Below, piece by piece: positions 24,314 through 61,375 of a stretch of DNA of 64,000 bases (positions are counted from its first letter, which is position 1; every line of letters starts with the position of its first letter). The translations under genes and the position numbers were made by a program. The stretch covers positions 2,110,501 to 2,174,500 of the forward strand of contig NZ_JAFEJA010000002.1 of the NCBI RefSeq assembly GCF_016919245.1, written 5' to 3'. The stretch comes from Streptomyces zhihengii. GTDB lineage: Bacteria; Actinomycetota; Actinomycetes; Streptomycetales; Streptomycetaceae. The notes below the pieces were generated by a model. That model was given only the letters and a program-made list of their open reading frames with translations, searched no databases and had not been told where the DNA came from.

Positions 24314-25249
24314 CTACTGCTTCACCTGCTTGACCTTCTTGGCCATCCCTTCGGCCGCTCGCTCGATGAGGGCGATCGTGGTGGCCCGGTCGTAGGCGTT
24401 CTCCTGCGCCTTACGGAAGGCGTCGGCGCTGGTGATGGCCGCCCCGGATCGGGTCTCGTAGTACGGGCAGAGGCCGTACCCCACGATCATGCGGTTCGAT
24501 CCGACCGTCACCAGCGCCGACGTGTGAATCAGATCCAGCATGCTCAGCTTGGAGGAGTCGAGCACGCGGATCCGCAGACGACTCTCATCCTCCCGCTTCA
24601 TCAGCTCCACGAGGTGGTGGAACTGTTCCGCCGCCGCGGCCGGTCCGCCTACCGGGCGGCTCAACAGGTACTCGTCGATCAGTACCGTTCGACGCTGCTC
24701 GGGATGACGTTCTACCGTGCGCACCCAGGACGGCATGCCCACGTCGTGGCCCGCGGGACCTGCGGACTGGTCGGAGTCCTGAGCGTCACGGTGGCTGCCG
24801 GGCCGCAGGTCCGAGGGAATGCGCGTGGTGGCGTGCTCAATGAGTTCGCTGGCCGAGAGCAGCACGGCAACGTAGCGGGCATCGGCTTCCGCCCCTGCGA
24901 CGTCTGCCCAGTGATCCCATCGGTCGCGTTGAGTCCACCCCTGGGGGGCCGGTGTGAACTGGGCTGGAGGGAGGGAACGCAGCAGATAGCGGCGATCCTT
25001 CTCGGCGACGGAGTACACGTCCAGCAGTGCCTCCAGCCGTTCCGGTTTCAGCGGACTCTCGGCTCTCTCGACGCGGGAGATGGTGGACGTCGCGACGTGG
25101 TCGTGGCGGCCGGACCTCCGCTGGCTCATCCGGTGAGCCCGGCGCAGAGCCCGAAGGTAGACGCCGAGGACGATCCGAGCGGGTGGTGCGGAGTCGGCGA
25201 CGGACAACGGTGCGGAAGCGCCGCGTAGAGGGAATTGCAGAACGGTCAC
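24314..25249 (-). CDS. XRE family regulator with DUF5753 domain (A)
   Basis: A 311-residue protein from GTG 25249. Residues ~25-95 form an XRE-like helix-turn-helix (LGVYLRALRRAHRMSQRRSG, TSTISRVERAESPL, RLEALLDVYSV). From about residue 110 comes the DUF5753-type C-terminal domain (RWDHWADVAGAEADARYVAV, RTVLIDEYLLSRPVGG, LRIRVLDSSKLSM). The start overlaps the stop of the upstream gene as GTGA, so the two regulators are translationally coupled. DUF5753 regulators often accompany secondary-metabolite or abi-like loci in Streptomyces. A much earlier start is possible but lies inside the other gene. Confidence 0.88.
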   Translation of the reverse strand: MTVLQFPLRGASAPLSVADSAPPARIVLGVYLRALRRAHRMSQRRSGRHDHVATSTISRVERAESPLKPERLEALLDVYSVAEKDRRYLLRSLPPAQFTPAPQGWTQRDRWDHWADVAGAEADARYVAVLLSASELIEHATTRIPSDLRPGSHRDAQDSDQSAGPAGHDVGMPSWVRTVERHPEQRRTVLIDEYLLSRPVGGPAAAAEQFHHLVELMKREDESRLRIRVLDSSKLSMLDLIHTSALVTVGSNRMIVGYGLCPYYETRSGAAITSADAFRKAQENAYDRATTIALIERAAEGMAKKVKQVKQ

Positions 25250-26142
25250 GGTGCGGCCGCCCTCTCCATGCGCTCTGCCGCCTTCGTCAGGTAGTAGATG
25301 GCGTTCTCCTCCTCTGATACGGCCCATAAGTGGCTGTTGAAAGCCGCCCGTGCGCGGCCTACTTCGACGGTGCGGGTCTCGTACCAGTAGCCGCTGGCGC
25401 CAGCCGCCACCCACTGGCCCTCGATCAGCATCAGGTGCGCGTGTTTGAACACAATCGGGGGCAGGTGCGGGCGCGGGACCAGGACACGGATCGTTGCGAG
25501 GCGCTCCTGCACGATGCTCACCAGGTACCGAAGCTGCTCAGCCATGACCAGCGGACCGCCGACGGGATACTCCAAGGCGTCCTGGCCAAGCAGGAGGATC
25601 AGCTCGGGTCGGCGTCCACGTCCCGCAAGCCTGTAGGGAGGCGTGTGCGCAGCGGTGCGCCCTCCGCATGCAGCTCGGGTGTAGGCGGGTGTTCGATAGG
25701 GCGGGGGGATGGACAGGTTGGTGTGGCTCAGGACGGTGGTGGCGGAGTCCCACATCAGCCAGTGCCGCAGAGCAGCACCGTGGCCTGTGTCGGTCCAGCG
25801 GTCCCACATGGTCCGCTCACAGCGCTGATCGGCAATCTGCTCCGCTTCCTCCCGGCCGGCCGTTACCGGCGGCAGGCCGCGGCTCAGCATCTCGACCGCC
25901 TCGTCTGGACTCTTGACGTTGTACAACCGCAGTAATGCGGTCAGGCATGCCCGGTCACGGGGCGGCAGGCCTTCCTCCCACTGGGACACGACCTGGTGGG
26001 GGACTCGCAATCGCTGGGCGACCGTTTCGAGGGTGAGCTTGCTTTCACGCCGCAGGTGCCGCAGCCATCGGCTGGTGACGAGCTGCGCCGGGGACGGGAC
26101 CGCGGCCGTGCGAGGTGAGGCGTGGTGCGGGGCGCTGGGCAT
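25246..26142 (-). CDS. XRE family regulator with DUF5753-like domain (B)
   Basis: A 298-residue protein. AAGGAC lies eight bases before ATG 26142. The HTH is at residues ~20-85 (LVTSRWLRHLRRESKLTLET, RLRVPHQVVSQWEEGLPPRD). The C-terminal domain resembles DUF5753 (MWDRWTDTGHGAALRHWLMW, ILLLGQDALEYPVGGPLVMA, IRVLVPRPHLPPIVFKHAHL). The order of domains is as in its coupled neighbour, so the pair is an old duplication. Upstream, 310 bases of hairpin-rich DNA separate it from the methyltransferase gene, so it may have its own promoter or read through. Confidence 0.85.
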   Translation of the reverse strand: MPSAPHHASPRTAAVPSPAQLVTSRWLRHLRRESKLTLETVAQRLRVPHQVVSQWEEGLPPRDRACLTALLRLYNVKSPDEAVEMLSRGLPPVTAGREEAEQIADQRCERTMWDRWTDTGHGAALRHWLMWDSATTVLSHTNLSIPPPYRTPAYTRAACGGRTAAHTPPYRLAGRGRRPELILLLGQDALEYPVGGPLVMAEQLRYLVSIVQERLATIRVLVPRPHLPPIVFKHAHLMLIEGQWVAAGASGYWYETRTVEVGRARAAFNSHLWAVSEEENAIYYLTKAAERMERAAAP

Positions 26143-26289
26143 GGGAAGTCCTTGTGCAGTTCTGCGAGGGAAAGGGCCTGCCTGCCCCCGAACGTCCTGT
26201 TGGGGGGACACGGTGCGTTCGGGGCAGGGCTGGAGCCGTACCAGTCCAGGCGAGACGGTGCGTCGATCGCCGGACGGGTGTGAAGTCGA

Positions 26290-26430
26290 GCCCTGGTGCC
26301 GACGCCTGATCCGGCGCCGGCACCAGGGGTGTGCCCGTGTCAGGCAGCTATGGGTAAGCCCGACACGGAGATCTAGGGGCTCATGCCGAGGCGCTTCTCG
26401 AACGCGACATGAGGCGTCGACACGGACTGA
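26290..26430 (-). repeat. Duplicated hairpin cassette with coding relic
   Basis: Minus strand, 5' to 3': codons for STPHVAFEKRLGMSP and a stop, then a hairpin (CCGTGTCGGGC facing GACACGGGC), then a longer hairpin (CCCTGGTGCCG / CGGCACCAGGG, 26291-26328). The same order (TPHAAFEKRLGGTL, stop, two hairpins with the same stem sequences) follows the gene at 28788. The region is therefore a partial duplicate of the 3' end of that gene plus its downstream structures. Confidence 0.7.
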
Positions 26431-26454
26431 AGCAGCGGAAAGCGGAGCCGAAGG

Positions 26455-27597
26455 CTACAGCCTGGCCGTCCAGTTTCCGCGGGTGAGGGTGGTCTCGCCG
26501 TCGGGGGTGATGGTGACACGGGCGCCGTACACGGGAAGTTCGCCGACCCAGTTGAGGCGGTCGAGGATGTCCTCGAGGGGGTCCCACAGGCGGCGTGGGC
26601 CGCCCTGGTACACGGTGGCAACCTCGCGGGGGGCGGGGGAGTGGGCGCGGACCCATGACCCGTCGGCGTGTGCCATCCAGACCGTGTGGCTACGGTCCGG
26701 GTACCACCGGTGGCGGTGCTCGATCCCGGGCGTGTGGAGCTGGAGCATGGAGCGGATGCTCCATGCCTCGGGCACGAACACGAGCAGGTGACGGCTCACG
26801 CTTGCTTCGCCGTCGCCGTGCTGTGCGGCGTCCCAGACGGTCGCCGGGATGGTCTCCTCGTAGTCGGCGCCTTGGCGGGCGGCCATGAAAAATGCCGGTT
26901 CGAAGGCGGTCCGTCCCACGGCGCCGCCGTCCGGGGTCTTGTCGGCGTAGAGAGTCAGCCCCGTCCCGGTGATCGTGGTGACCAGCCGGCCGTAGGGCCG
27001 CAGGGCTTCGAGCCAGGCGGGCGGGATGCTCGGTACGGCCACGGTGGACACGATCCGGTCGTACTCGCCCGGGAGCGGCCCCTGGGTGAGGTCGCAGACG
27101 GCAGTCTCGGGACGCAGCCCGATAGCAGCGAGCCGGTCGGTGGCGGCTTCCACGAGGTACGGGTCGACGTCGACGCTGGTCACCATGCCTGCGCCGAGTC
27201 GATGGCAGGCGAGTGCGGTGCCGTAGCCGGTGCCGGTGGTCACCAGCGTGCGGCACCCGTCGATCAAGTCCGCCTGCCGATACATTCCGACGATCAGGCC
27301 CGGCTCCGTCGAGGACGACGTCGAGACGCCGGAGGTGACCACGGTGCCGGGTTCGGCGTGGTCCGCGTGCACGGCCCCGACCCGCGTGACCAGCGTGGTG
27401 TCGCTGTACGCGGCGGCGAGCCACGCATCGGGGTCGGCCGCACCGTCGCGCACGACCCGCCCGCCGGCCTCCTGGTCCCGTTCGAACCACCGGGGCACGA
27501 ACACATGCCGGGGGGTTTCCGTAACGGCCGCCTCCCAGGGGGATCCCGGCCGGGCGACCTTCGCGCCCAAGCGCTGGGCGTCTGTCTCCCAGTCCAT
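26455..27597 (-). CDS. PCMT-like SAM-dependent methyltransferase
   Basis: A 380-residue protein; GGAGAAG precedes ATG 27597. Residues ~15-40 (VTETPRHVFVPRWFERD) and ~85-115 (TSGVSTSSSTEPGLIVGMYR) resemble the PCMT substrate region. SAM motif I is TTGTGYGTALACHRLG, then VTSVDVDPYLVEAA. The C-terminal ~120 residues (GPRRLWDPLEDILDRLNWVG, GARVTITPDGETTLTRGNW) form the extension typical of actinobacterial PCMT homologues. In some RiPP pathways such enzymes methylate Asp side chains. The radical SAM gene ends 26 bases upstream, so the two are one operon. A role in modifying a peptide is inferred from context only. Confidence 0.85.
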   Translation of the reverse strand: MDWETDAQRLGAKVARPGSPWEAAVTETPRHVFVPRWFERDQEAGGRVVRDGAADPDAWLAAAYSDTTLVTRVGAVHADHAEPGTVVTSGVSTSSSTEPGLIVGMYRQADLIDGCRTLVTTGTGYGTALACHRLGAGMVTSVDVDPYLVEAATDRLAAIGLRPETAVCDLTQGPLPGEYDRIVSTVAVPSIPPAWLEALRPYGRLVTTITGTGLTLYADKTPDGGAVGRTAFEPAFFMAARQGADYEETIPATVWDAAQHGDGEASVSRHLLVFVPEAWSIRSMLQLHTPGIEHRHRWYPDRSHTVWMAHADGSWVRAHSPAPREVATVYQGGPRRLWDPLEDILDRLNWVGELPVYGARVTITPDGETTLTRGNWTARL

Positions 27598-27623
27598 GCT
27601 GCTTCTCCTCTTCCTGACCGTTG

Positions 27624-28487
27624 TCAGCTCATGGGGCCGCAGGAGCCGCCGCCGGACGAGCTGTCGTCCGAGGGCCCGCAGTCCGGCCCGCACGGGTCCG
27701 CCGAGTCCCGGACCGGGACGCTCTTGCGGGCCTGCTGCCACGCGGGGCTGGTCAGAACTGACGCCAGCGGCGTCTCGCGGACGTTGCCCGCGGTCAGGAA
27801 GCGGCCGATTTCGCAGACGGACACCTCACCGTTCGGCAGGACGGCCGCCTTGCGATCGCCGCAGCGCCCGCACAGCGACGACGTGGACGGCAGAAGGCCG
27901 CCGGAGGCGCGCCCGACCGCGCGGACCTTGTCGACGGAGGCGGTGACCCCGAGGGCCTCCATCTCGGCGCGTGCCTGCTCCGCCCGCTGGCCGTTCCCGT
28001 GGTCGACGATGGCGACGCGCAGCTTCACGCCGCGCATGAATGCTTCGCGGATCGCGGCGCGCGTGGCCGCGTGAGACCCGTCCCGGCCGGTGATCGCATC
28101 GTGCTGCGCGGGGTCATCGCTGTGGTAGGTGGTCGCCACGCGTACGCGCGGGTCCTCGAAGAGGCTCCAGTGCTCGTCACGGACCTTGTAGAGGTTCGAG
28201 TGCACCCGGACATTCAGGCCTGCGTTCAGCGCGTGCTCGACGAGTTCGGTGAAGGCCGGGTGCAGGGTGGGCTCCCCGCCGATGAACTGCACGCTGCGCG
28301 TACCGAGGGCGTGGGCCTCGTCGATGAGCCGGTGCCAGTTGTCGGCGGTCATGCTGCCGTGGTCGCGGGTCGGGCCCGCCTCGGCGTAGCACTGGCTGGG
28401 GCAGGTGAACTGGCACCGGGCGGTGAGTTCGAGCGAGAGGACGTCGAGCGGGGTGGGGGAGGGGCGGTGTATGTCCAGCACGGTCAT
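27624..28487 (-). CDS. Radical SAM enzyme with SPASM-like C-terminus
   Basis: A 287-residue protein; AAGGAG lies before ATG 28487. The iron-sulfur motif is C25-QFT-C29-PSQ-C33 (CX3CX3C), one residue longer than the usual CX3CX2C. SVQFIGGEPTLHPAF supplies the SAM-binding GGEP. The C-terminus has CGRCGDRKAAVLPNGEVSVC, then a Cys/Gly/Ser-rich end (PCGPDCGPSDD, GGGSCGPMS) like an auxiliary-cluster SPASM domain. Such enzymes make radical modifications, often on peptides. The partner is a methyltransferase 26 bases downstream. I recall actinobacterial proteins with CPSxCYAEAGPT, so this spacing may be a subfamily trait. Confidence 0.85.
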   Translation of the reverse strand: MTVLDIHRPSPTPLDVLSLELTARCQFTCPSQCYAEAGPTRDHGSMTADNWHRLIDEAHALGTRSVQFIGGEPTLHPAFTELVEHALNAGLNVRVHSNLYKVRDEHWSLFEDPRVRVATTYHSDDPAQHDAITGRDGSHAATRAAIREAFMRGVKLRVAIVDHGNGQRAEQARAEMEALGVTASVDKVRAVGRASGGLLPSTSSLCGRCGDRKAAVLPNGEVSVCEIGRFLTAGNVRETPLASVLTSPAWQQARKSVPVRDSADPCGPDCGPSDDSSSGGGSCGPMS

Positions 28488-28787
28488 TGGTTGCTCCTTG
28501 CTCGTCCGGCCCAGGATGCCGGGCCGGGGCGGAAGGTGTGGGCGGAACGGTCCCATCGGCCGTGGGTGATGGGCCCGGCGCGGGGAACGCCGCCGTGGGG
28601 GAACACGATCGGGTGGTGCCCCGCGCCGGAAGTGGCGCCTGTCCGGCGGCCGGGGACGGGCCGTCGACCCGACCGCCGGACAGGAGTTGTGGGGCCCCTG
28701 GTGCCGGAGCCGGATCCGCTCCGGCACCAGGGGGTGCGCCCGTGTCGGGCAGCTACGGGGGGGGGAGGGCCGCCCGGACACGGGGAT
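28488..28787 (-). promoter_or_regulatory. 300-base leader with stacked hairpins
   Basis: Between the 180-residue gene and the radical SAM gene there is no supportable ORF, but at least three strong stems: 28739-28784 (CCCGTGTCGGGC / GCCCGGACACGGG, one bulge), 28695-28733 (16-bp perfect CCCCTGGTGCCGGAGC / GCTCCGGCACCAGGGG) and 28638-28684 (CCTGTCCGGCGG / CCGCCGGACAGG). A weaker one lies near 28510. The first probably terminates or attenuates the upstream transcript. The whole could set the ratio of upstream to downstream gene products. No precursor-peptide gene is visible here. Confidence 0.65.
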
Positions 28788-29330
28788 CTAGAGGGTTCCG
28801 CCGAGACGCTTCTCGAACGCGGCATGCGGCGTCGGCTCCGGCTGGTGCAGGGCGAGCGTCTTCCACAGCGGCATGCCGGGAACCAGACGGTCGCTCCTGG
28901 ACGGCCGGTACCAGTAGGGCCCGGGAACGGAAGGCCATGACGTGGAGTCGAGCGACGGAAGCGTGATGCGGCACGGGGCGCCGAGGCAGACGGCATGGGT
29001 GTGCTGCGGCCACCGTTCGGCCGTGCCCGGCGGGACCAGCCAGTAGAAGGATCCGTCTCGGGTGTCCTCGATGACCGGTCCGCACCCGCCCTGGATCTCG
29101 TCCATGACGTCGACAGCGGCGCGAGCTTTGAAGCTCGAGCTGGTGACCACGACGTCGAAGAGGTTGCCGCCCAGGCGCACGATGGTGTCCTCGCGCCTGG
29201 TGACTGCCAGAAGATTGCGGAGCAGCTCAGCAAGGTCGGCCATGTCGGCGGCCGGCTCGCTGGGGCCACCCGCCTCCCGCACGAGCCTGTTCATCATCTG
29301 CCCGGCGTCGGGCGTCGCGGTGACGGTCAC
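28788..29330 (-). CDS. Unknown protein, 180 aa, coupled to HATPase gene
   Basis: Starts GTG 29330, overlapping the stop of the HATPase gene as GTGA. The N-terminal half is helical (DMADLAELLRNLLAVTRRED). The middle reads CGPVIEDTRDGSFYWLVPPG, then ITLPSLDSTSWPSVPGPYWY and a basic end TPHAAFEKRLGGTL. From memory, actinobacterial proteins with 'GPVIED...FLVPPG' occur beside regulators and HATPase genes; their function is unknown. Its last codons and the hairpins after it are partly duplicated at 26290-26430. It could act as a peptide carrier or regulator in the radical SAM locus, but the sequence does not show which. Confidence 0.75.
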   Translation of the reverse strand: MTVTATPDAGQMMNRLVREAGGPSEPAADMADLAELLRNLLAVTRREDTIVRLGGNLFDVVVTSSSFKARAAVDVMDEIQGGCGPVIEDTRDGSFYWLVPPGTAERWPQHTHAVCLGAPCRITLPSLDSTSWPSVPGPYWYRPSRSDRLVPGMPLWKTLALHQPEPTPHAAFEKRLGGTL

Positions 29331-30208
29331 AGGTCCACCGGCCCCGCCTGGAGCGTGGCGCGCACGGTCTTGCCCGCGCTGCTGGGGAACCAGGTCACTT
29401 CGGCGCCGTGACTCTTGGCCCCCCACAGGCCGCGGCCGAGTTCACCGCTCACGGCCTTGTCGAAGGCGGGGAAGTCGGGGGTGTCGTCCTCGACGTCGAC
29501 GAGCAGTTCATCGTGCTCCGTCAGCCGGAGCGCCACCCTCACCGACCGTCCGCTCCCCGCGGGTAACCCGTACTCGAAGGCGTTGGTGACGAGGACGTAC
29601 AGCACGTCCGTGGCAAGGTGGACGGGGCCGGGCCAGGCCAGGATCGTGAGCGCGGATCGTGCCCAGACGCGGGCGGACCCGGACGAGTTCGGGTTGGCGT
29701 CGAATTCCATGGTCTTCTCGCGCACGATCTGCGGGGTGGCCATGTCGGATGTTCCTTCGGTCAGGGGAAGGGTGCACCAGACCGTCGTTCGGTCTTCGCT
29801 GACGCCCCAGGCATCGGCTACCGCGTCGACGATGAACAGGCCGCGGCCGTGCTCGGCGTCCGGGCTCGAGGAGCCTGGCAGCGGACAGCGGGGCGTTCCA
29901 TCGTTCACCTCGATCTTGAGGTGGCTGTCCAGGTGGGCAACCCGCACGTTCACCGTAGGGCCGGATGCGTGACGGAGGGCGTTCGTCACGAGCTCGGTGA
30001 GCAGCAGCTCCGCGGCGTCGACGAGTTCGTGCCGGTTCCAGTGGTGGAGAGCTGCGCGAAGCGTCCGGCGGAGCTGGTGCGGCCGCCTTCTGTCCGCCTC
30101 GGACATGCCACCGGTGACGGGATCGGGGCGGCGCTCAATTGACATCTCGAGGGCTGGCTGCCTGAGCGGCCGCTGTCGGACTCCGGCAGCCTTGGGATGC
30201 GTTGTCAT
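29327..30208 (-). CDS. Tandem double-HATPase (anti-sigma-kinase-like) protein
   Basis: About 293 residues. Two HATPase_c domains lie in one frame. The first (residues ~50-155) has the N box LLLTELVTNALRHAS, then DGTPRCPL and GRGLFIVDAVADAWG. The second (~160-290) has VLYVLVTNAFEYGLPAGSG, VEDDTPDFPAF and GRGLWGAKSHGAEVTW. Single-domain versions are RsbW/SpoIIAB-like serine kinases or anti-sigma factors in Streptomyces. ATG with GAAGGA at the start of the second half (MATPQIVREKTM) suggests it was, or still is, a separate start. The N-terminal start is uncertain: 30208 or 30145. An IS4 element sits 16 bases upstream and probably removed the native promoter. Confidence 0.82.
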   Translation of the reverse strand: MTTHPKAAGVRQRPLRQPALEMSIERRPDPVTGGMSEADRRRPHQLRRTLRAALHHWNRHELVDAAELLLTELVTNALRHASGPTVNVRVAHLDSHLKIEVNDGTPRCPLPGSSSPDAEHGRGLFIVDAVADAWGVSEDRTTVWCTLPLTEGTSDMATPQIVREKTMEFDANPNSSGSARVWARSALTILAWPGPVHLATDVLYVLVTNAFEYGLPAGSGRSVRVALRLTEHDELLVDVEDDTPDFPAFDKAVSGELGRGLWGAKSHGAEVTWFPSSAGKTVRATLQAGPVDL

Positions 30209-30223: not shown

Positions 30224-31721
30224 CAATGCCGTGTAGTTAGGGGTGCCGTGGGCGGTGTCAAGGGGCGGGCGTCAGGATGTGGACGCTGATCGTGGCCCTG
30301 TAGGTGGTGCGGTCGACGGTGCCTCTGGCGTTGTATCTCGAGATGGCCCGTTTCACGACGCGTGGACGGGTGCGGACACGGCGGTCGGGCATGAGGGCGG
30401 CCAGGATTCGGCGGCCTATGGTGCCGACGAGGTCGATCACGGCGCCACTGAACACGCCTGCGGCCTGGATGACCAGATCGCGGGCGGTGTTCAGGGCGAT
30501 GGAGAAACTCGCCCGGTCGGGGTCGGTCCCGGGCCGGCTGGCGGTGGCGTCCGCCATCGCCAGCCGCAGGACCTGGTAGGTGACCAGCACTGCGAAGACT
30601 TCCTGGGCGACACCGGCGGGAGTGCGGGCACGAAGGACCCGACCGCCGAGGATCGTCGACTTGATCTCCAGATAGGTGGTCTCGATTTCCCACCGCTCGT
30701 GATACAGCCCGATCAGATCGCCGGCGGGGTGGGTGAAGGGGTCGGTCAGGGTTGTGACCAGCCGGTATGCGCCGGTGCGTCGTCCCTGTGATGTGCTGAT
30801 GGTGATCTCGCAGCAGACAACACGGACCGGAACGGGTCCGATCCGGGAGAGCCAGGAGCCGTCGGGGAAGCGTCGCAGGACCGGCAGTCTGCGGTTCTCC
30901 TTCACCCGGACCAGGACGTGTGCGCTCCTCAAGGTGACTGCTTCGATCAGGGCCTGGACGGCGAAGTTCCGGTCCAGCAGGACGATCATGTCTTCCCGCA
31001 GGCTTCGGACCAGGCGTGGAGCGTAGGTGGTCTCACCGTCGGTGGCCGGACCGAATACCGCGTCCATGACGGTTCGGGTTCCGCAGGCGACCAGGATCAG
31101 AAGCCGCAGTGAGGGGTATCCCGCGCCGCCATTGTTGCAGCGGTGCCTGGTGAACTCGGCCTGGTTCGCGGGGCTGTCCGGCACTGCCATCAACGTGCCG
31201 TCGATGGCGCAGACGAGCAGTCCGTGCCACCGCGTTCCGGCGATCCCGAGTCCCGCGGCCGGTCCACGAAGCAAGTCGAACAGGTGACGCAACGGTCGGG
31301 TCCCGAGCCTCTTGCGGGCCTGGGCCAGCGCGCCGGCCGTGGGAGTCGCCGTCGGCAGTCCGTCCAGGCCGGCCGTCAGCCGCTGCCACACCTGCTGCCA
31401 TCCGAGCCCCGGGAACAATGCCCCGCCCAGCAGCAGATACACCACCACGCGCGAGGGAAGGTCCCGTATCCGCTGCTGGGTTCTGCCGGTATCTGCCAAC
31501 ACCTCATCGACCATCTCGAACGGGACAATCCGTGTCAGCTCGCCGAGATGGCCGGGGGCAAACGCCCCTGCCGCAACCGCTACTTCGCGAGAAATGACAG
31601 ACTTGGCGGCCAACGGAGCTCCTGCTGAACAGTGATCTTGGTCGACACGGTTCTAGCAGGAGCTCCGTCACTTCATCAGCCTGCTTGACAAGCAGCCCAG
31701 AGCCCTAACTACACGGCATTG
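30224..31721 (-). mobile_element. Intact IS4-family insertion sequence
   Basis: The terminal inverted repeats CAATGCCGTGTAGTTAGGG are identical over 19 bases at both ends (30224-30242 and the complement at 31703-31721). They are flanked by the direct repeat GGTCTATCCC (30214-30223 and 31722-31731), a 10-base target duplication. Length is 1498 bp with one transposase gene. The perfect ends and duplication indicate recent insertion. Confidence 0.92.
30258..31613 (-). CDS. IS4-family transposase
   Basis: A 451-residue protein. The N-terminal IS4-type domain (RIRDLPSRVVVYLLLGGALF, GWQQVWQRLTAGLDG) is followed by the DDE catalytic core: Asp in LVCAIDGTLMAVPD, Asp in MIVLLDRNFAVQAL, and Glu in the YREK signature YHERWEIETTYLEIKS. 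All are present and the frame is intact, so it should be functional. It catalyses cut-and-paste transposition of its own element. Confidence 0.95.
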   Translation of the reverse strand: MAAKSVISREVAVAAGAFAPGHLGELTRIVPFEMVDEVLADTGRTQQRIRDLPSRVVVYLLLGGALFPGLGWQQVWQRLTAGLDGLPTATPTAGALAQARKRLGTRPLRHLFDLLRGPAAGLGIAGTRWHGLLVCAIDGTLMAVPDSPANQAEFTRHRCNNGGAGYPSLRLLILVACGTRTVMDAVFGPATDGETTYAPRLVRSLREDMIVLLDRNFAVQALIEAVTLRSAHVLVRVKENRRLPVLRRFPDGSWLSRIGPVPVRVVCCEITISTSQGRRTGAYRLVTTLTDPFTHPAGDLIGLYHERWEIETTYLEIKSTILGGRVLRARTPAGVAQEVFAVLVTYQVLRLAMADATASRPGTDPDRASFSIALNTARDLVIQAAGVFSGAVIDLVGTIGRRILAALMPDRRVRTRPRVVKRAISRYNARGTVDRTTYRATISVHILTPAP

Positions 31722-41279: not shown

Positions 41280-41729
41280 GTGCCACCTCCCGGCCATCAG
41301 GCCCGCCAGACACGGACCCGCCTGCCGCCAGTCTGAAGACGCCCCCACACCCGCCCCCGCCCCAGCCGCCCACGTCCCACCCCGTAACACTCCTGTCGCC
41401 CCGCCCGGTCCCGCCCACGGGACACGCCGCTCAAGAGGCCCACGATGCTGCGGCCAACGCTGTAGCTCGGGTGCTCCCCGCCCCGGCTGCTCGGCGCCCT
41501 TGCCAGGATGTGAGGGTGTCCGATCGGCGTCGCCGGGGGTGAGTCATGGCCTGCGGTCTGCGGCCGCTGGCGCGCAGCACACCTCTGGCATCAGCGGCCG
41601 CTGCCCGTTGCGCAGGCGGGGATTTCCCGCCCGGCGGGACGCGCGGGGAGATTCTCATCCAAGGGCCTGGGAGGAACCGTCCCGGCGCCTTCTCTGGCTT
41701 TGGCGGGCTGGTCGACTTCCTGTGTGGGA
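41280..41729. other. Candidate oriT/promoter region
   Basis: 450 bases between the divergent coiled-coil and relaxase genes, the usual place for an oriT in MobF systems. I see only short inverted repeats (for example GCGGG-GATTT-CCCGC near 41620) and no recognisable nic core. Both genes must also start transcription here. Confidence 0.4.
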
Positions 41730-44700
41730 ATGACCGGGGCGGCCGTGACGGCCGAGAACTACCGCTACTACCGGAGCAGCGTCGCTGCGGGCGACGGCAT
41801 CCAGGGTGGTGAGCCGGCCGTGTCGTCGAGTGAGCCGGGCGTCCCGGCCGGGGTGTGGGCCGGCCGGGCCGCGGCCGCGATGGGGCTGATGGGGGAGGTG
41901 ACCGAGCCGCAGATGAGGGCGCTGTTCGGCTTGGGCATGCATCCCGATGCCGAGGAGCGAATCGCTGCCGAGCTGGCACGGGGGGCCTCGATTCGCCAGG
42001 CGTTCACGGCGGCGAAGCTGGGTCGGGCGGTGCCCCAGTTGGCCGAGCAGTCACCGCTGGACAAGACGGTCGAGGAGGTTCTCGACCTCGCGGCCGCGCG
42101 GCTGTGCCGGCCGCTGACGAAGTCGGAGCGCCGTGAACTCACTCACCGCACCGCAGCTCTCGCCTTCGAAGCCGAGTACCACCGCAGCCCCGCTGACGGT
42201 GAAGAACTCGGCCGGTATCTCGCGGCGCGGACCGGGCCCAAGCGCCGGGCCGTGACCGGCTGGGACCTGACCTTTGCTTCTGAGGAACTGTCGCTGCTGT
42301 TCGCGCTCGGCAGCCCCGAGGTGCGGCGCATCGCCTTGGAGGTCCTGGAGCAGGCCCGGACGGAAACCCTGGCGTGGCTGGAGAACCACGCGCTCGCCGT
42401 CCGTAGCGGAGCGGGCGGGATCGTCCAGCACCGGGCCGAGCCGGCGCTGATGGCGACGGTCTATCTCCACTATGAATCGCGTGCCGGTGACCCGATGCTC
42501 CACGAGCACGTCGTGATCAGCCCGCGCGTCAAAGGTCCGGACGGGCGGTGGGGGAACCTGGATTCGCGCCTGCTGCTGCGCGAGATCGTCGCCGCCAGCG
42601 AGCTGTTCAACCAGCGGGCCCTGGAACTGCTCTGCGACCGGCTGGGCCTGGCCGCGGAGGAAGTGGTGGTCACACCCGGCAGGCGGCCGGTCATGCGGAT
42701 CGTCGGCATCGACCCGCGGATCCGTGCCGAGTTCGCCAGCCGTGCGGGCGCCGTGCGGTCCATGGCCGAGGACCTGTTCGACGACTACCGGCGCCGCCAC
42801 GGCCGTCAGCCGGACGCCGGCGCCCGGATCCGGCTGCAGCAGCGGGCCACGCTGATGACCCGACCGCCCAAGGGCAAGGCCCGCCCTCTGGACGACCTGC
42901 TCGACACCTGGCGGCGCCGGGCCGTCGCAGCGACCGACCAGGACACCGTCGACCGTCTGCTCACCGCAGCCCAGGCAGCAGCCCTCACCCGCGACCCCCA
43001 GCACCCGGCCGAGGCGAACGTCGACCTCTCCGCGGCCGCTACGGAGGTGCTCGCGGCCGTGGCCGAGCGGCGCACCACCTTCAGGCGCCGCCACGTTCTC
43101 GCGGAGGCCCGCCGCTACCTGATGCGCACCCTGCGCGGGCAGCCAGCCGGGCCCCAGCTCGCCGAGGAGATCACCGACCGCGTTCTCACGCACGGCGACT
43201 GCCTGGACATCACCCCACCCACCATCAACCCGACTCACCCCGACCTCGTCCGTCCGGACGGCAGCAGCATCTACCGGCCCATCGGCTCGGACACCTACAC
43301 CACCCACTCCCTCCTGGCCTCCGAACACCGCCTCCTCGCCGGAGCCCGCAGCCGGGTGATCCCGCCCGTCGCCCACGGCACCTTCCACCGCACCGCCGCC
43401 CTCCACCCAAGCCGAATGGACGCCGGACAGAAGGCCCTGGCCGCGTCCTTCGTCCTCTCCGACCGCCTGCTCCAGGCCGGACTGGGCCCCGCCGGCGCGG
43501 GCAAGACCACCGCCATGCGGCTGGTCGCAGCCGCCGTCGACGCAACGGGCGGCCGCCTGATCCCGCTCGCCCCGTCCTCCCGCGCCGCCCAGGTCCTCGC
43601 CACCGACCTGCAACGCCGCGCCCACACTCTGCACTCCTGGCTGCACCAGCGCGCCCAGGCAGCCGGCGGGCACCCCGTGGAGGCGGAATTCTCCCTGCGC
43701 CCAGGCGACGTCGTCCTCGTCGACGAAGCGGGCATGGCCGGCACCCTGCTCCTGGACCAGGTCCTCGCCGACGCGGCCGCCGCCGGCGCCGTCGTCCGCC
43801 TCCTGGGTGACCCGCACCAACTCGCCGCCGTCGAGGCCGGAGGCGCACTGCGGCTCATCTCCCAGGCGGGCGCCACGGTCGAACTCGACCGCCTGCACCG
43901 CTTCACCGTTTCCGGCGAAGGCGACGCCTCCCTCACCTTGCGCGACGGCGAAGACCCCCGGTCGGCCTTCGACTGGTACCGCAGCAAAGGCCGGATCGTC
44001 GCAGGACGGCACGAGGCGATGTGCGACGCGGTGTTCACCGCGTGGGCGGCCGACACCGGCCGGGGCCTCGCCTCGCTGATGACCGCCGCCGACAACGCCA
44101 CCGTCAACGAGCTCAACCAGCGTGCCCAGAACTGGCACATCTCCCGAGGGGACCTCGACACCAGCAGCTCCATCCCCCTGCGCACCGCAGCGCGCGCCCA
44201 CCCCGGCGACATCATCGTCACCCGTCTCAACCGTCGCCGCATGACCGTGCGCGGCGGGAAGGACTTCGTGAAGAACGGCGACACCTGGACCGTCGAGAAA
44301 ATCCTCGCCGACGGCGCCGCGACCGTCCGGCACACCCAGCACCGCGGCCGCATCACCCTGCCCGCCGACTACCTCACCGCCCAGGCCGAGCTCGGCTACG
44401 CCTCCACCATCCACCGCGCCCAAGGCATGACGGTCGACACCTCCCACGCGCTGGCCTCCGCCCGCTCCACCCGCGAAGGCGTCTACGTCCAGCTGACCCG
44501 CGGCCGGCGCACCAACCGCCTCTACATGGCCATCGACAACGGCGACCACCTCGACGACGTCCTCACCGCCGTCGCCGCACGCCGCAGTGCGCAGCTGACC
44601 GCGACCGAGCAGATCGCCGCCCTGCAGCGCAATATCAGCGCGCCCGGACAGCTGTCAGCCGAGTACGCCGACGTCACCGAACGCGCCACCGCCGCCCGCC

Positions 44701-46421
44701 TCACCGGGGCCCTCGAACAGATCCTCGGCGCCGACCGGGCAGCACAGTTCCTGGCCGCCGACGCCTACCCCGCCCTCGCCCGCGCGCTCCACGACGCCGA
44801 ACGCGCCGGCTTCGCCCTGCCCCGACTCCTCGCCCGCACCGCTCTGGACCGCGGGATCTTCGACGCCGACGACGTGTCCGCCGTGCTGACCTGGCGGCTG
44901 CGCGAAGCCCTCACCGACGCCGAACAGGCCCGCCACACCTTCCGCGACAGCACCCTGGCCGCGCGCTCACAGGCCCAGCTCGACACCCTCAAGCAGCTCG
45001 CCGCCGGTCATCGCACAGCAGCTCAACAAGCGCTGATGGCTACCGACGCCGCCTTCACCCACCTGCCCACCCCCGTCACCACCCGCCAGGGAACCACCCA
45101 TCCCGCCTGGCCCGACCGGCCGCTCGGCCCCCTCACCCGCAGTGAGCTCGCCTCCCAGCTGGCAGCCGTCCGCACCCAACCGCACGATGCGGGCTCCACC
45201 AGCCACCCTCTCTCCGACACCGCCCACGCCACCATCACCGCCCTGACCACCGAAACCCAGCTGCGCCGCGCACTGACCTGGCGCGACCGCGCCCGCGAGG
45301 ACTACCAGCGAGAACGCTCCCCGAACCGCCCCCACACCGCCCACCAGTCGCTCACCGCCGCCCGTCGCCAAGCCGCCGAACGCCGCGCCGCCACCGAGCA
45401 GCGACAGCACTCCGCCCGGGCTGCCGTGGCCCGCGCCGAGGCCGTCACCGCCCGGATCGACGCCGAGCTGCGTCTGCGTGAACGCCTGCCCGACCGCATG
45501 CCGCACCCTCGCACCCGCGGCGAGATACCCGACTGGGTCGCCGACTCCCACGCCCTCACCCACCCCGACACCCCCGCCCACTGGCGCACCCACCTCGCCG
45601 AACGCCACCGCACCCTGGCCCGCTCCCTGGCCGACCGCGGTCACACCCTCGCCGGCAACCCGCCCGCCTGGACACGACCGCTGGGCCCGCCTCCCTCCAC
45701 GCACTCACCGCGCCGCCGCCACGCATGGGCCACCACCGCCGCCCTGGTCGAGCTGTGGCGTACCCGCCACGCCATCCACAGCGTCCCCGGACTCGGCCCC
45801 CGCCCGGCCGACCCCGAAGCGGCAGGACACTTCGACGACCTCGACGCACGCATCCACGCGCTGACCGGACGGCGCCGCCCGGCCCTGCACCTGCCGCCCG
45901 CCGGCGCACCCGCCCACCAGGTCCTCGCTGCCGCACTCGGCCACCTCGACACCCCACCACCGGCCAGACCCCAGCCCGCACACCCGGCTCTGCACGACCC
46001 CTCCGGCGTCGCACCCCACACCTACGGCGCCCTCGCCCGCATCGCCCTGTCCGCAGCACTCGCCGGCGAAAGCGCCCCCGAAGAATGGATGGAGAAGATC
46101 ACCCCGCCCGGCAAGGACGACGAGGACGAACAGCGCACCTTCACCGCACTGATCACCACCCTCAGCGACTACCGGCGCCGCCACCACCGTGCCGGACACG
46201 ACATCCTCGGCCCCCGCCCCGAAGGACTCGCAGGCGAGGAATGGGACCACCTCACCAACGCCATCGACCTCTACACCCACGCCTGCGTCGCCCGCCGCCT
46301 CAAGCAGATACGCGAGCGCACCGCCGCGGCCCGGACCGCGCTGAAGCCCCCGACCTTGCCCCTCCACCAGCAGCCCCGGCCCGACAACCACCGCCCGCGC
46401 CCGCAGCGCCCAACCCACTGA
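41730..46421 (+). CDS. MobF-type relaxase-helicase (TraA-like)
   Basis: About 1563 residues. N-terminal TrwC-type relaxase: Tyr cluster AENYRYYRSSVAAGDG near the start and the metal-binding histidines in YESRAGDPMLHEHVVIS at about residue 258. RecD-like helicase: Walker A GPAGAGKTT (about 587), Walker B GDVVLVDEAGMAG (about 661), LGDPHQLAAVE, and C-terminal YASTIHRAQGMTVD (about 890). The last ~550 residues are helical and Ala/Arg/His-rich, with VARRLKQIRERTAAARTAL near the end. It nicks and unwinds plasmid DNA for conjugative transfer. The start is uncertain: ATG 41730, GTG 41724 or GTG 41745; none has a strong RBS. Compared with typical TraA, the conserved opening is short. Confidence 0.92.
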   Translation: MTGAAVTAENYRYYRSSVAAGDGIQGGEPAVSSSEPGVPAGVWAGRAAAAMGLMGEVTEPQMRALFGLGMHPDAEERIAAELARGASIRQAFTAAKLGRAVPQLAEQSPLDKTVEEVLDLAAARLCRPLTKSERRELTHRTAALAFEAEYHRSPADGEELGRYLAARTGPKRRAVTGWDLTFASEELSLLFALGSPEVRRIALEVLEQARTETLAWLENHALAVRSGAGGIVQHRAEPALMATVYLHYESRAGDPMLHEHVVISPRVKGPDGRWGNLDSRLLLREIVAASELFNQRALELLCDRLGLAAEEVVVTPGRRPVMRIVGIDPRIRAEFASRAGAVRSMAEDLFDDYRRRHGRQPDAGARIRLQQRATLMTRPPKGKARPLDDLLDTWRRRAVAATDQDTVDRLLTAAQAAALTRDPQHPAEANVDLSAAATEVLAAVAERRTTFRRRHVLAEARRYLMRTLRGQPAGPQLAEEITDRVLTHGDCLDITPPTINPTHPDLVRPDGSSIYRPIGSDTYTTHSLLASEHRLLAGARSRVIPPVAHGTFHRTAALHPSRMDAGQKALAASFVLSDRLLQAGLGPAGAGKTTAMRLVAAAVDATGGRLIPLAPSSRAAQVLATDLQRRAHTLHSWLHQRAQAAGGHPVEAEFSLRPGDVVLVDEAGMAGTLLLDQVLADAAAAGAVVRLLGDPHQLAAVEAGGALRLISQAGATVELDRLHRFTVSGEGDASLTLRDGEDPRSAFDWYRSKGRIVAGRHEAMCDAVFTAWAADTGRGLASLMTAADNATVNELNQRAQNWHISRGDLDTSSSIPLRTAARAHPGDIIVTRLNRRRMTVRGGKDFVKNGDTWTVEKILADGAATVRHTQHRGRITLPADYLTAQAELGYASTIHRAQGMTVDTSHALASARSTREGVYVQLTRGRRTNRLYMAIDNGDHLDDVLTAVAARRSAQLTATEQIAALQRNISAPGQLSAEYADVTERATAARLTGALEQILGADRAAQFLAADAYPALARALHDAERAGFALPRLLARTALDRGIFDADDVSAVLTWRLREALTDAEQARHTFRDSTLAARSQAQLDTLKQLAAGHRTAAQQALMATDAAFTHLPTPVTTRQGTTHPAWPDRPLGPLTRSELASQLAAVRTQPHDAGSTSHPLSDTAHATITALTTETQLRRALTWRDRAREDYQRERSPNRPHTAHQSLTAARRQAAERRAATEQRQHSARAAVARAEAVTARIDAELRLRERLPDRMPHPRTRGEIPDWVADSHALTHPDTPAHWRTHLAERHRTLARSLADRGHTLAGNPPAWTRPLGPPPSTHSPRRRHAWATTAALVELWRTRHAIHSVPGLGPRPADPEAAGHFDDLDARIHALTGRRRPALHLPPAGAPAHQVLAAALGHLDTPPPARPQPAHPALHDPSGVAPHTYGALARIALSAALAGESAPEEWMEKITPPGKDDEDEQRTFTALITTLSDYRRRHHRAGHDILGPRPEGLAGEEWDHLTNAIDLYTHACVARRLKQIRERTAAARTALKPPTLPLHQQPRPDNHRPRPQRPTH

Positions 46422-49493: not shown

Positions 49494-50396
49494 TTATGCG
49501 GCTTGGGCCAGCGTAGTTGGTGTGAGCTGGAGAGCTTCCTCGAAGGCGATCGGTGATCGTTGCCCGAGGTAGGAATGTCGGCGTCGGGTGTTGTAGCGGT
49601 GGAGCCATCGGAAGGCGTCGAGCCGGGCCTCGCGCTCGGTGGACCAGCCTTTCCGTCCCTGCAGGGTCTCGCGTTTGAAGGTGGCGTTGAAGGACTCGGC
49701 GAGTGCATTGTCCGCGCTGGACCCGACCGCGCTCATGCTTCGCCGCGCCCCTGCTGACCTGCATGCTTCAGCGAAAATTCTGCTCGTGTACTGGGCTCCG
49801 TGGTCGGTGTGCATGATCGATCCGGCGAGGCTGCCGCGGGTGCGGATCGCCGCGGCCAGGGCGTCGGTGACGAGGTCCGCGCGCATGTGGTCGGCGATCG
49901 CCCAGCCCGCCAGGCGTCGTGAGGCAAGGTCTATGACGGTCGCCAGGTAGCAGAACTTCCCGCCCTCGATGGGCAGGTAAGTGATGTCGCCGACGTACTT
50001 CGTGTTCGGTTTGTCCGCGGTGAAGTCGCGGCCGATCAGGTCCGGGGCCTTGGCCGCGGCCGGGTCTGGGACGGTAGTGCGGTGCCGGCGACGCAACCGG
50101 ACCCCCTCGATCCCGGACGCCCTCATGATCCTGGCGACCCGCTTGTGGTTGACCACCTCACCGTTCTTCTCGCGAAGCTCGGCAGTGATCCTCGGGACTC
50201 CGTAAGTGCCGTCCGATTCCTGGTGCACCGCCCGTATCCGGGTCGCCAGGCGGGCGTCGGCTGATTGCCGGGCGGCGCGGTCAGCGGCTGTCCGGCGCCA
50301 GTAGTAGAAGCTCGAGCGGCTGACGCCGAGGATGCTGCACAGCCGCTTCACGCCGTGACGGCGCTGGAGGTCGGCGACACACTGGAAGCGGTTCAC
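49494..50396 (-). CDS. IS3-family transposase OrfB
   Basis: A 300-residue protein. N-terminal HTH-like region (NRFQCVADLQRRHGVKRLCS), then the rve integrase core: Asp in KYVGDITYLPIEGGKFCYL, Asp in GSIMHTDHGAQYTS, and Glu in SADNALAESFNATFKRE. The catalytic triad is complete and the frame intact. Its ATG overlaps the stop of OrfA as ATGA, so translation may be coupled as well as, or instead of, made by the -1 frameshift common in IS3 elements. Confidence 0.95.
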   Translation of the reverse strand: MNRFQCVADLQRRHGVKRLCSILGVSRSSFYYWRRTAADRAARQSADARLATRIRAVHQESDGTYGVPRITAELREKNGEVVNHKRVARIMRASGIEGVRLRRRHRTTVPDPAAAKAPDLIGRDFTADKPNTKYVGDITYLPIEGGKFCYLATVIDLASRRLAGWAIADHMRADLVTDALAAAIRTRGSLAGSIMHTDHGAQYTSRIFAEACRSAGARRSMSAVGSSADNALAESFNATFKRETLQGRKGWSTEREARLDAFRWLHRYNTRRRHSYLGQRSPIAFEEALQLTPTTLAQAA

Positions 50397-50698
50397 CAGC
50401 GCGTCTCCCCGGCGAAATACTTCGCCGCTTTGCGCAGGATCTCGCGTTCCTCCTCCAGCTCACGGACCTTCTTCCGCAAAGCGGCGTTCTCCGCCTCCAG
50501 CGGGGCCGGCGGCTGAGAGGGGTCCTGCGTCCGCCGGCCCCGGGGACGACTCACGCCGGCGGCCCTCACCCAGTTCCGCAGGGTCTCCGGATTGATCCCC
50601 AGATCGGCGGCGACCGACCTGATCGTCGCTTCCGGCCGCGACTCGTACAGCGCGACCGCGTCCGCCTTGAACTGCGGCGGGTAGTTCTTCATGACCAC
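50393..50698 (-). CDS. IS3-family transposase OrfA
   Basis: A 101-residue protein. Helix-turn-helix (YPPQFKADAVALYESRPEAT, DLGINPETLRNWVRAAGVSR) followed by a leucine-zipper-like C-terminus (ENAALRKKVRELEEEREILR). It binds the IS ends and is needed with OrfB for transposition. It overlaps OrfB by 4 bases. Confidence 0.94.
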   Translation of the reverse strand: MVMKNYPPQFKADAVALYESRPEATIRSVAADLGINPETLRNWVRAAGVSRPRGRRTQDPSQPPAPLEAENAALRKKVRELEEEREILRKAAKYFAGETRW

Positions 50699-57766: not shown

Positions 57767-58788
57767 CTGTGGTCCTTTGCGGCGCGGGTGCTCATGCTGC
57801 GCACGTTGTAGTAGCGGTCGTCGCCCAAGGCGTCGGGCAGGGATCCGTCCAGCAGGGCGGCCGCCACCTCGTCCACCGCCTGGGGGACGTCGCGGCGCGG
57901 CTGGATGCCCAGCAGCCGGGTGAGCCTGGTGGCTGTGAGGCGGTAGGAGCGCAGGTCATCGGTGGCCGTGGTGGTCACGTCGACCGGTTCCCCGAGTCGG
58001 CGGGAGACACGTTCGCGCACCGCGGCGGCGATCTCGGAGACAGTCATGTTCTGCCTGCCCACGTTCAGGGGCCTGCCGTTGAGCGGCCCGAGGGACGGGT
58101 CGAGGACGAGGCGGCAGTACACGTCGACGAGGTCGTCGATGTGCACGTTGGGCCGGTACTGCGACCCGCCGAACACGGTCACCGCCCGCTTCTTCACGGC
58201 CTGGGCAGTCAGCAGGTTCACCGTCAGGTCCAGGCGCTGGCGTGGCGAGACACCGCAGACGGTGGCCGCCCGCACGGCCACCGTTTCGAAGTTGCTGCCG
58301 GTCAGCGGGAAGAGGATGTCTTCCCCGAGCGCCTTGTAGCGGCTGTAGTCGGTGAGAGGGGCCAGCGGCTGGAGTTCATCGACCTCGGGGGCGTCGCACA
58401 CGCCGTAGACGCTGGCCGATGAGGCGTACACGAAGCGACGCACTCCGGCCTCGACGGACAGCCGGGTGACATGGTCGAGGCAGTCGTGGTTGACGGCGCG
58501 GCCGAGCGCCGGGTCGAGGTCGAAGCTCGGGTCGTTGGCCACCGCGGCCAGGTGCACGACGACATCGATGCCGTGTACCGCGTCGCGGAAGCCGTCGGCG
58601 TCGCGTACGTCGGTGGTCACGACTTCGAGGCGCGGGTCTCGGACTCCGGCGAGGCCGTCGCCGAAGAGCTGGGTGTCCATGGCCCGCACCCGGGCGCCGT
58701 CGGCGAGCAGGCGCCGCACGAGGACGGAGCCGATGTAGCCGGCGCCTCCCGTGACGAGCACGGTGGGGGGAGCGGTCGGGTCCGTCAT
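57763..58788 (-). CDS. NAD-dependent epimerase/dehydratase (SDR)
   Basis: A 341-residue protein. The Rossmann glycine motif TGGAGYIG is at residues 13-20, and the catalytic YxxxK is Tyr148-SRY-Lys152 with SS in FVYASSASVYG before it. This is an extended SDR acting on an NDP-sugar or related substrate (epimerisation or dehydration at C4-C6). It is coupled by ATGA to the HAD gene upstream and by GTGA to the GH65 gene downstream. In this operon it probably works on the product of the nucleotidyltransferase. Confidence 0.92.
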   Translation of the reverse strand: MTDPTAPPTVLVTGGAGYIGSVLVRRLLADGARVRAMDTQLFGDGLAGVRDPRLEVVTTDVRDADGFRDAVHGIDVVVHLAAVANDPSFDLDPALGRAVNHDCLDHVTRLSVEAGVRRFVYASSASVYGVCDAPEVDELQPLAPLTDYSRYKALGEDILFPLTGSNFETVAVRAATVCGVSPRQRLDLTVNLLTAQAVKKRAVTVFGGSQYRPNVHIDDLVDVYCRLVLDPSLGPLNGRPLNVGRQNMTVSEIAAAVRERVSRRLGEPVDVTTTATDDLRSYRLTATRLTRLLGIQPRRDVPQAVDEVAAALLDGSLPDALGDDRYYNVRSMSTRAAKDHR

Positions 58789-59516
58789 GTGCTCTCCTTG
58801 CCGGCGGGTACCGCCCAGTCGTCGAGGTCGATTTCGTCCAGGGTGGACACCCGGGGCGCGGTGTCCTCGGGCGCCAGGTGGGCTGTCCGGTCGATGAGCA
58901 GGGCGTCGGCGCCGATCGTGAGGCCTGCCGCGACGCCGTGTTCGGTGTCGTCCACCACCAGCGTCCGCTCCGGGGCTGTTTCCCAGACACGGACGACACG
59001 GCGGACTGCTTCCGCCCGGTCGGCGGGCGGGTGCGGTCCGCCGGCGCCGAGGCTGCGGTCGATCCGGCTGGTCAGCCATGCCGCCCGGGGATGGCCGGCA
59101 AGGAGCCCGCGCAGCAGGGTGCCGGCGTTGCGTGACGCGGTGCAGAAGGCGAGAGGTATGTCGCGTTCGGCTGCCCGGTCCAGCAGGCGTGCCGCGTCGG
59201 GGAAGAGCAGGGTGCTGCCCGCCAGGGCGAGGAAGGCGCTCTGTTTGACCGTGACCAGCCGGTCGACGAGTGCCGGGGTTGGGTCGACGCCCACGGAGGC
59301 GAATGCCGCACGGGCGCCCGCGTCGCGGGGGCGGCCCGCGACATGGCGCTGGTAGGCGTACGCCGTGAGGCCGCCGTGGGTCCAGTTGTCGATGGCGGGG
59401 CCGAGCACCTGCCGCAGCGCCTGGTTCCAGGCCCGCAGGTGCGGGGTGTCGAGGAGGGTGCCGTCGATGTCGAGGACCAGCAGACCGTAGGGGGGCGGCG
59501 TGGAGGAGTCCTTCAT
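58785..59516 (-). CDS. HAD family phosphatase
   Basis: A 243-residue protein. Motif I LVLDIDGTLLDT holds the nucleophile Asp16 and Asp18. A helical cap domain follows (residues ~25-100), then ALAFCTASRN-type motif II, and TLVVDDTEHGVAAG as motif IV. HAD phosphatases of this size remove phosphate from sugar phosphates or nucleotides. It is coupled by ATGA on both sides. Its place between nucleotidyltransferase and epimerase suggests it dephosphorylates a sugar or cyclitol phosphate intermediate. Confidence 0.9.
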   Translation of the reverse strand: MKDSSTPPPYGLLVLDIDGTLLDTPHLRAWNQALRQVLGPAIDNWTHGGLTAYAYQRHVAGRPRDAGARAAFASVGVDPTPALVDRLVTVKQSAFLALAGSTLLFPDAARLLDRAAERDIPLAFCTASRNAGTLLRGLLAGHPRAAWLTSRIDRSLGAGGPHPPADRAEAVRRVVRVWETAPERTLVVDDTEHGVAAGLTIGADALLIDRTAHLAPEDTAPRVSTLDEIDLDDWAVPAGKEST

Positions 59517-61371: not shown

Positions 61372-61375
61372 GTCG

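Follow-up and report, generated by a model that had tools for sequence, protein, structure and literature searches.

Maturases of the SkfB type form thioethers, and SkfB itself is a sactipeptide-type maturase of ribosomally synthesized and post-translationally modified peptides (RiPPs) that acts on a separate precursor. The accessible part of Lee et al. (2023; PMC10787088) reports 249 two-gene clusters of a radical S-adenosylmethionine (rSAM) enzyme and a protein aspartyl O-methyltransferase (PAMT) whose neighbourhoods yielded no gene for a precursor or substrate. PAMTs contain a C-terminal domain and, as far as the accessible sources go, act mostly on cyclised or hairpin peptides. Here we describe such a pair in a stretch of 64,000 nt (hereafter the window) on contig NZ_JAFEJA010000002.1 of the 9.73 Mb genome of Streptomyces zhihengii. 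We propose, with a probability of about 0.6, that it is a RiPP-like system of two genes in which maturase and precursor are fused into one protein, the C-terminal tail of the rSAM enzyme being the substrate; the missing precursor would then probably sit inside the rSAM gene, as this tail. The features on which the proposal turns are the following.

27624..28487, minus strand: rSAM enzyme, 287 residues, with an ordered SkfB-like domain at residues 1-262 (family, fold and model)
27627..27701, minus strand: C-terminal Cys-x-Pro tail of the rSAM enzyme, residues 263-287 (ADPCGPDCGPSDDSSSGGGSCGPMS), the proposed fused core peptide (pLDDT and family behaviour of tails)
26455..27597, minus strand: PAMT, a PCMT/PIMT-like methyltransferase with an extra C-terminal domain, 380 residues (family matches)

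The rSAM enzyme and its Cys-x-Pro tail

A preliminary description of this DNA had named a radical SAM enzyme with a SPASM-like end and a PCMT-like methyltransferase, and both assignments hold. The rSAM protein scores 51.4 bits with PF04055 (cut-off 29.5), which places it in the radical SAM superfamily, and 31.0 bits with the SPASM family PF13186 (cut-off 21.5), the latter match extending to residue 270; the methyltransferase scores 38.0 bits with PF01135 (cut-off 20.3). The SPASM motif consists of CX9-15GX4C, then CX2CX5CX3C and a final C. Its first half is present in the window enzyme (C209-X10-G220-X4-C225), whereas the second half is absent by reading, the tail holding CX3CX12C. By profile and fold alike, SkfB is the closest solved structure across the whole ordered domain, with a fold match that begins at residue 8 of the model and residue 100 of SkfB.

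The confidently ordered part of the enzyme ends at residue 262 and is followed by the Cys-x-Pro-rich tail. AlphaFold, run with 73 sequences, gives a predicted local distance difference test score (pLDDT) below 50 at residues 263-265 and 267-287 and mostly above 90 in the body; in L114 (48 sequences), a PAMT-less relative whose longer tail recurs in several entries, residues 256-294 fall below 50, again with a body mostly above 90. Among 154 distinct relatives the tails are 10-99 residues long (median 40) and contain 1-11 cysteines, and 651 of the 680 tail cysteines lie within C-x-P, as compared to 113 expected after shuffling. At least two C-x-P units were also seen by eye at the C-terminus of relatives on a Paraburkholderia plasmid, on a Rhizobium plasmid and at 18 IMG/VR loci. 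Several genes that appear tail-less (L068, L220, L221, L224, L228) do encode one, either out of frame or beyond a stop.

The 154 relatives were assembled from two samples. The first comprised 110 loci, 104 of them distinct, and was reduced to 99 by dropping five as broken or tail-less (L037, L038, L068, L125, L142). The second contributed 62 new distinct loci, from which seven were dropped (L218, L223 and L227 with a short core; L220, L221 and L224 with an out-of-frame tail; L225 merged with the methyltransferase), leaving 55. Two tail cysteines were required in the second sample and not in the first, which makes the figure of 150/154 partly a matter of choice, and the second-sample table (24/25 with PAMT, 12/32 without) predates the removal of L220 and L221. 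In L225 a shortened rSAM gene is merged in frame with the methyltransferase gene; the same genome holds two further copies.

The tails evolve in a modular manner. Tail identity correlates with enzyme identity at a Spearman coefficient of 0.34 over 4,753 pairs, the values for five internal segments of the enzyme being 0.47-0.62. Enzymes that are only 49% identical may carry tails that are 93% identical (L072/L094), enzymes at 71% identity may carry tails at 27% (L041/L066), and differing tails are also seen on enzymes that are 71-75% identical. Tandemly duplicated tail units occur in three of the 154 relatives (L106, L080, L195) and in the viral-contig locus L237, with 14-20 observed identities between units; shuffled tails (n=4,760) never exceeded 7, or 12 when C and CxP were kept fixed. 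Tails shorter than 30 residues were left out of the shuffling, L237 and L248 are manual additions, the latter with only 8 identities, and L235 was not counted because its tail end equals that of L106. In 23 close pairs the ratio of nonsynonymous to synonymous polymorphism (pN/pS) is 0.26 for the tail and 0.25 for the core, and the tail must therefore be considered functional. Judging from the alignments and models, the tails appear to behave like cargo: they are swapped, duplicated and predicted to be disordered.

Two copies in Streptomyces apricus SUN51 (L075 and L070) differ by a 16-residue tail deletion between similar ACxP units, which leaves one cysteine. A locus from a metagenome-assembled genome labelled Acidobacteriota (L103) encodes a Cys-x-Pro cassette in frame with, and upstream of, the rSAM core (2111-2170), as though a tail unit had been transferred to the N-terminal side.

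The cluster motif of the window enzyme is CX3CX3C, not CX3CX2C (C25-X3-C29-X3-C33, window 28389-28415). CX3CX2C is found in 58 of the 94 PAMT-bearing and in all 60 PAMT-less relatives, CX3CX3C in 33 and none, respectively, and three PAMT-bearing enzymes have other motifs; in L041, Tyr replaces the first Cys. In one literature search we found no rSAM paper describing CX3CX3C apart from an isolated mention for NifB, at odds with the rest of that paper: the accessible text of PMC9692996 writes it once and gives CX3CX2C for NifB elsewhere. In the accessible part of PMC3132745 the spelling is applied to peptides. This one-residue insertion in a third of the PAMT-linked enzymes is a second point for enzymologists.

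The conserved pair and the question of its substrate

Co-occurrence of the two enzymes, which the preliminary description had singled out, is borne out in other genomes. The methyltransferase directly follows the rSAM gene in 60 of 80 loci, and none is adjacent in the other 20; this proportion is biased upwards because the 80 loci (44 labelled Streptomyces) are the top scorers among 321 matches to an alignment headed by the window enzyme. The converse, that homologues occur alone or in unrelated contexts, applies to a part of the family, as 60 of the 154 distinct rSAM relatives are without an adjacent methyltransferase. Many of the loci inspected closely carry partner genes of another kind, and L049, L054, L130 and L222 have no visible partner. 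When the 1,093 called open reading frames (ORFs) of 81 loci were clustered, the rSAM enzyme was found in 76, the methyltransferase in 62, XRE-type regulators (by eye) in 28, NsdA-like TPR proteins in 19 and HATPases in 13. In addition to a close second copy described below, the window genome itself contains a fragment and a third rSAM-PAMT pair (identities of about 58/51%).

Of 392 genomes sampled from the genus, 73 contain the family, as do 4 of 396 in a phylum-wide search at E 1e-45 (own genome included in both); it is thus sporadic. Among 30 listed plasmid records, 25 match at an identity of at least 40%, and 18 loci lie in IMG/VR contigs, which implies that the family moves. PADLOC returned only weak matches, to viperin and mad2 models, and a role as a defence system was rejected. 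On one Streptomyces plasmid, an rSAM-PAMT pair is closely preceded by a HAD-like gene and a gene annotated haaN, for an N-acetyltransferase of cyclophane-containing RiPPs (L136:6446-6919).

The methyltransferase of the window matches TIGR04188 over nearly its full length (8-369), with 257 bits against a cut-off of 380, and TIGR04364 (FxLD) with 72 bits against 320. It shares 51% identity with an annotated PAMT that neighbours tgmA/tgmB on a plasmid. Near the C-terminus of 89 of 98 methyltransferases we find the pattern xxxxGx(1,2)PxxG, which is looser than the published WXXXGXP and starts with W in 27 and L in 57. With the conserved pairing and the published precursor-less pairs, the likeness to the tgmA/tgmB-linked enzyme upholds the earlier view of a peptide-modifying pair without a neighbouring precursor. 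Asp-Ser and Asp-Gly are the classical aspartimide-prone contexts. One or the other is present in 90 of the 94 tails accompanied by a PAMT.

PAMT-less enzymes have partners and tails of their own. One clade combines an AAA ATPase and an APH-like kinase with tails such as CDPxCGPxCGPACxPSCWPTGxGPCxPxGGCxPNY, and another an APH-like kinase with tails ending in ECxPGxPxSxCxPR. A third has a protein of about 115 residues and the almost fixed tail CTPPQFLPMCGPCGPCVPSVGHCDP across many genomes (L168, L171, L174, L185-187, L190, L192, L198, L202, L204), and looks like one defined product; in the loci opened (L186, L187, L202, L246) this protein is encoded directly downstream of the rSAM gene. The AAA match lies above the Pfam cut-off and the two kinase matches just below, and the ~115-residue protein has no match. 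We lean slightly towards a widespread actinobacterial family of self-modifying rSAM enzymes with an exchangeable, sometimes multi-copy Cys-x-Pro core, in which the partner enzymes (PAMT, APH-like kinases with or without the AAA ATPase, the ~115-residue protein) would match the type of tail. Such a family would represent a new, precursor-less RiPP architecture and would explain the orphan rSAM-PAMT clusters.

What might the pair do to the tail? We envision that the SkfB-like domain (residues 1-262) presents its flexible Cys-x-Pro tail as the core peptide and modifies residues therein, most likely by cross-linking cysteines through thioethers, either in cis or between copies. Given its similarity to SkfB, the window enzyme may share the hallmark of sactipeptide and ranthipeptide maturases, a thioether on peptide cysteines. 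The downstream PAMT would afterwards methylate an aspartate of the tail, in most cases one followed by Ser or Gly, and methylation might lead to an aspartimide or isoaspartate in the constrained tail. Finally, a host protease might release the product, or the tail might remain attached.

Several observations weigh against a fused substrate. Two relatives (L125, L142) show neither a visible tail nor an obvious break, and the tail-enzyme correlation of 0.34 exceeds that of the N-terminal 16 residues (0.20). Asp-Ser or Asp-Gly is also present in 19 of the 60 PAMT-less tails. The association of tail and PAMT follows phylogeny and is not independently significant: methyltransferase status changes about three times on the enzyme tree, yielding three independent pairs, one of them on well-supported branches, so that significance is out of reach and shared ancestry may account for the association, which accordingly failed as independent evidence. 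No protease or exporter family is prominent among the neighbours in the ORF clustering of the 81 loci. Finally, C266, the first tail cysteine, is invariant in 73 sequences and is the sole tail residue with a pLDDT not below 50, and the short tails of L130, L131 and L049 carry just two cysteines, all of which would fit a tail that in part serves as ligand to an auxiliary cluster.

This last point leads to the main rival, according to which the tail belongs to the enzyme, its cysteines ligating an auxiliary iron-sulfur cluster in a SPASM- or twitch-like manner, and the real substrate is another molecule supplied in trans. The SPASM match that reaches into the tail and the invariance of C206, C209 and C225 alongside C266 would fit such a role. 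However, a single cluster would need only these four residues and would leave the remaining cysteines unexplained, and neither the wide spread of tail lengths and cysteine numbers nor the duplicated units, whole-tail swaps and low pLDDT of the remaining tail are readily reconciled with a ligand. We regard this rival as rather unlikely.

Alternatively, the pair might belong to an ordinary RiPP system whose precursor is encoded elsewhere or was missed, with the tail merely binding the precursor or the methyltransferase. Precursors can be distant, and the accessible descriptions of PAMT systems feature a separate precursor; the sole small family recovered, of about 74 residues with little cysteine, is encoded some 1.1 kb upstream at 8 of the 81 loci, which also counts against fusion. 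Yet no small family exceeds these 8 loci by ORF clustering (BLAST clustering being weak for very short peptides), and six-residue words within 700 bases on each side of 70 PAMT-bearing loci are shared by at most 6 loci upstream and 7 downstream, the top words being mostly Arg/Pro/Gly-rich. The published pairs likewise come without a precursor as far as the accessible text of PMC10787088 goes, and duplicated and swapped tails would find no explanation, which renders this alternative improbable. A search for a free-standing Cys-x-Pro peptide gene gave 30 matches over 80 loci; one is the in-frame cassette of L103 and the others appear by eye to be chance frames, and the candidate was rejected.

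Regulatory front end and genomic surroundings

The remaining features of the locus are listed below.

29327..30208, minus strand: tandem HATPase protein, apparently a regulatory front end rather than core (relatives annotated 'ATP-binding protein')
28788..29330, minus strand: 180-residue protein, HATPase partner; also precedes several RiPP operons
28696..28787, minus strand: two strong terminator-like hairpins 3' of the 180-residue protein gene (z -6.2)
26373..26435, minus strand: remnant copy of the 3' end of a 180-residue protein gene (...TPHVAFEKRLGMSP stop), downstream of the PAMT gene
26291..26372, minus strand: terminator-like hairpins, second copy (repeat comparison and hairpin scan, z about -6.2)
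25246..26142, minus strand: XRE/DUF5753 regulator, without a match beside the own-genome paralogue
24314..25249, minus strand: second XRE/DUF5753 regulator, overlapping the first

The layout agrees with the preliminary description: six genes run in one direction, all on the minus strand, with GTGA overlaps at 29327-29330 and 25246-25249 and a 26-base gap between the rSAM and PAMT genes (27598-27623). PF13581/PF02518 match two stretches of the HATPase protein, both regulators match the XRE and DUF5753 families, the 180-residue protein matches no Pfam or NCBIfam family above cut-off, and by family search none of the six genes encodes an ATP-grasp, dehydratase or tgmA-like protein. The idea that all six form one system found no support, since the HATPase-180-residue pair also fronts graspetide and FxLD-lanthipeptide operons, and since the second HATPase-180-residue-rSAM-PAMT copy in the same genome (contig C3, 90-95% identity) has no XRE match alongside among matches above 60 bits. 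The recurring unit looks like rSAM plus PAMT, with the HATPase, 180-residue and XRE/DUF5753 genes resembling a regulatory front end that is partly shared with other RiPP operons; the XRE/DUF5753 genes probably belong to a separate unit. The upstream regulatory genes suggest that expression of the locus is controlled. With 31 DUF5753 matches in 9.73 Mb, or about 0.04 per 12 kb, the regulators near 28 of 81 loci are above background, the base rate being that of this one genome.

Relatives of the 180-residue protein occur on 21 plasmid records, eight of which were opened. One has tgmA, tgmB and a PAMT, one tgmB, one an FxLD methyltransferase, FxLD peptide and dehydratase, and one a different rSAM enzyme with a small protein; four have no annotated RiPP maturase close by, one of these with an rSAM gene about 4 kb away. 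The HATPase of the tgmA/tgmB/PAMT plasmid is 54% identical to that of the window, and the accessible part of a graspetide survey (PMC8939145) names HATPase and HTH-DUF5753 genes as neighbours that are often found. Next to an rSAM-PAMT pair, the 180-residue protein has a strong match in just two places, the window and the second copy in its genome; a further match lies 4.8 kb off in L056, and those in L053 and L088 are weak. That the pair might modify a metabolite, or the HATPase or 180-residue protein for regulatory purposes, is suggested by a fold also similar to BlsE, viperin and MoaA and by the HATPase and XRE-type genes often nearby, but is most improbable given this restricted occurrence and the known action of PAMTs with an extra C-terminal domain on peptides, as far as the accessible sources show.

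A direct repeat flanks the rSAM-PAMT pair (26291-26435 and 28696-28850, 77% and 79% identical in two pieces), whereby the last codons of the 180-residue protein gene and the two strong hairpins recur after the PAMT gene. The own-genome copy lacks the second motif after the PAMT gene. The simplest reading is that the pair entered by recombination at the end of a 180-residue protein gene and landed before an unrelated XRE pair. The 180-residue protein was itself considered as a precursor, as its C-terminal AFEKRLG, duplicated after the PAMT gene, first resembled a recognition tag; it was rejected because a strong match to it adjoins the pair only in the two copies of this genome and its relatives partner HATPases before other operons, and we read the duplicate as a recombination remnant. 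In L258 (4985-6288), a different rSAM enzyme without a Cys-x-Pro repeat tail, a 59-residue peptide ORF and a GNAT gene follow a relative of the 180-residue protein, possibly a separate RiPP.

Elsewhere in the window, an IS4 transposase gene lies directly upstream of the locus (30258-31613), a DDE_Tnp_4 transposase gene at 922-1797 and an IS3-like transposase at 49494-50698, whose two adjacent ORFs, paired by eye, include one with rve and HTH_21. A TrwC relaxase/helicase-like protein of 1573 residues (41700-46421) shows that the neighbourhood carries a conjugation gene. A gene run at 55523-62512 encodes a glycosyl hydrolase 65, an NAD-dependent epimerase and a DegT/DnrJ aminotransferase, and is perhaps a sugar-metabolite cluster.

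Implications and relation to known systems

Should the rSAM enzyme indeed modify its own tail, the question posed by the 249 substrate-less clusters would turn into a simple mass-spectrometry experiment, and the orphan clusters would become directly testable. Genome mining for separate small precursor genes would be expected to miss such systems, and a single gene could serve as a platform for making modified peptides. A literature search mainly outside subscription journals brought up no report of an rSAM enzyme of this kind with a fused substrate, and the words 'radical' and 'rSAM' do not occur in the accessible text of a 2026 review of aspartimide RiPPs.

How does the locus relate to described systems? 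The rSAM enzyme is closest to SkfB over the ordered domain, but the N-terminal part of SkfB has no counterpart in it. Graspetide (tgmA/tgmB) and FxLD lanthipeptide operons share a related PAMT and, on some plasmids, the same HATPase-180-residue front end; the window differs in that TIGR04188 and TIGR04364 remain below cut-off and in that its six genes comprise no ATP-grasp, dehydratase or tgmA-like gene. Pamtides and imiditides, which are PAMT-only RiPPs, likewise employ a PIMT-like enzyme with an extra C-terminal domain and a conserved substrate Asp, but, according to the accessible parts of PMC10787088 and PMC13001092, rely on a separately encoded precursor and lack an rSAM enzyme, whereas no such precursor was found beside the PAMT of the window.

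In borosins, a core peptide is fused to its own modifying enzyme (OphMA; PMC11285071, accessible part), as proposed here. The borosin maturase is an N-methyltransferase and that of the window a radical SAM enzyme, in which the fusion is seen and self-modification would have to follow; if it does, maturase-core fusion would extend to radical SAM enzymes. The orphan clusters of Lee et al. (2023) have the same gene pair and the same absence of a neighbouring precursor, and the window locus is most likely one of their kind, assuming that the two sets coincide. The gene pair as such is therefore known. What is new is a proposed answer to what it modifies: the accessible text of PMC10787088 proposes no substrate for these clusters, and here we propose the tail.

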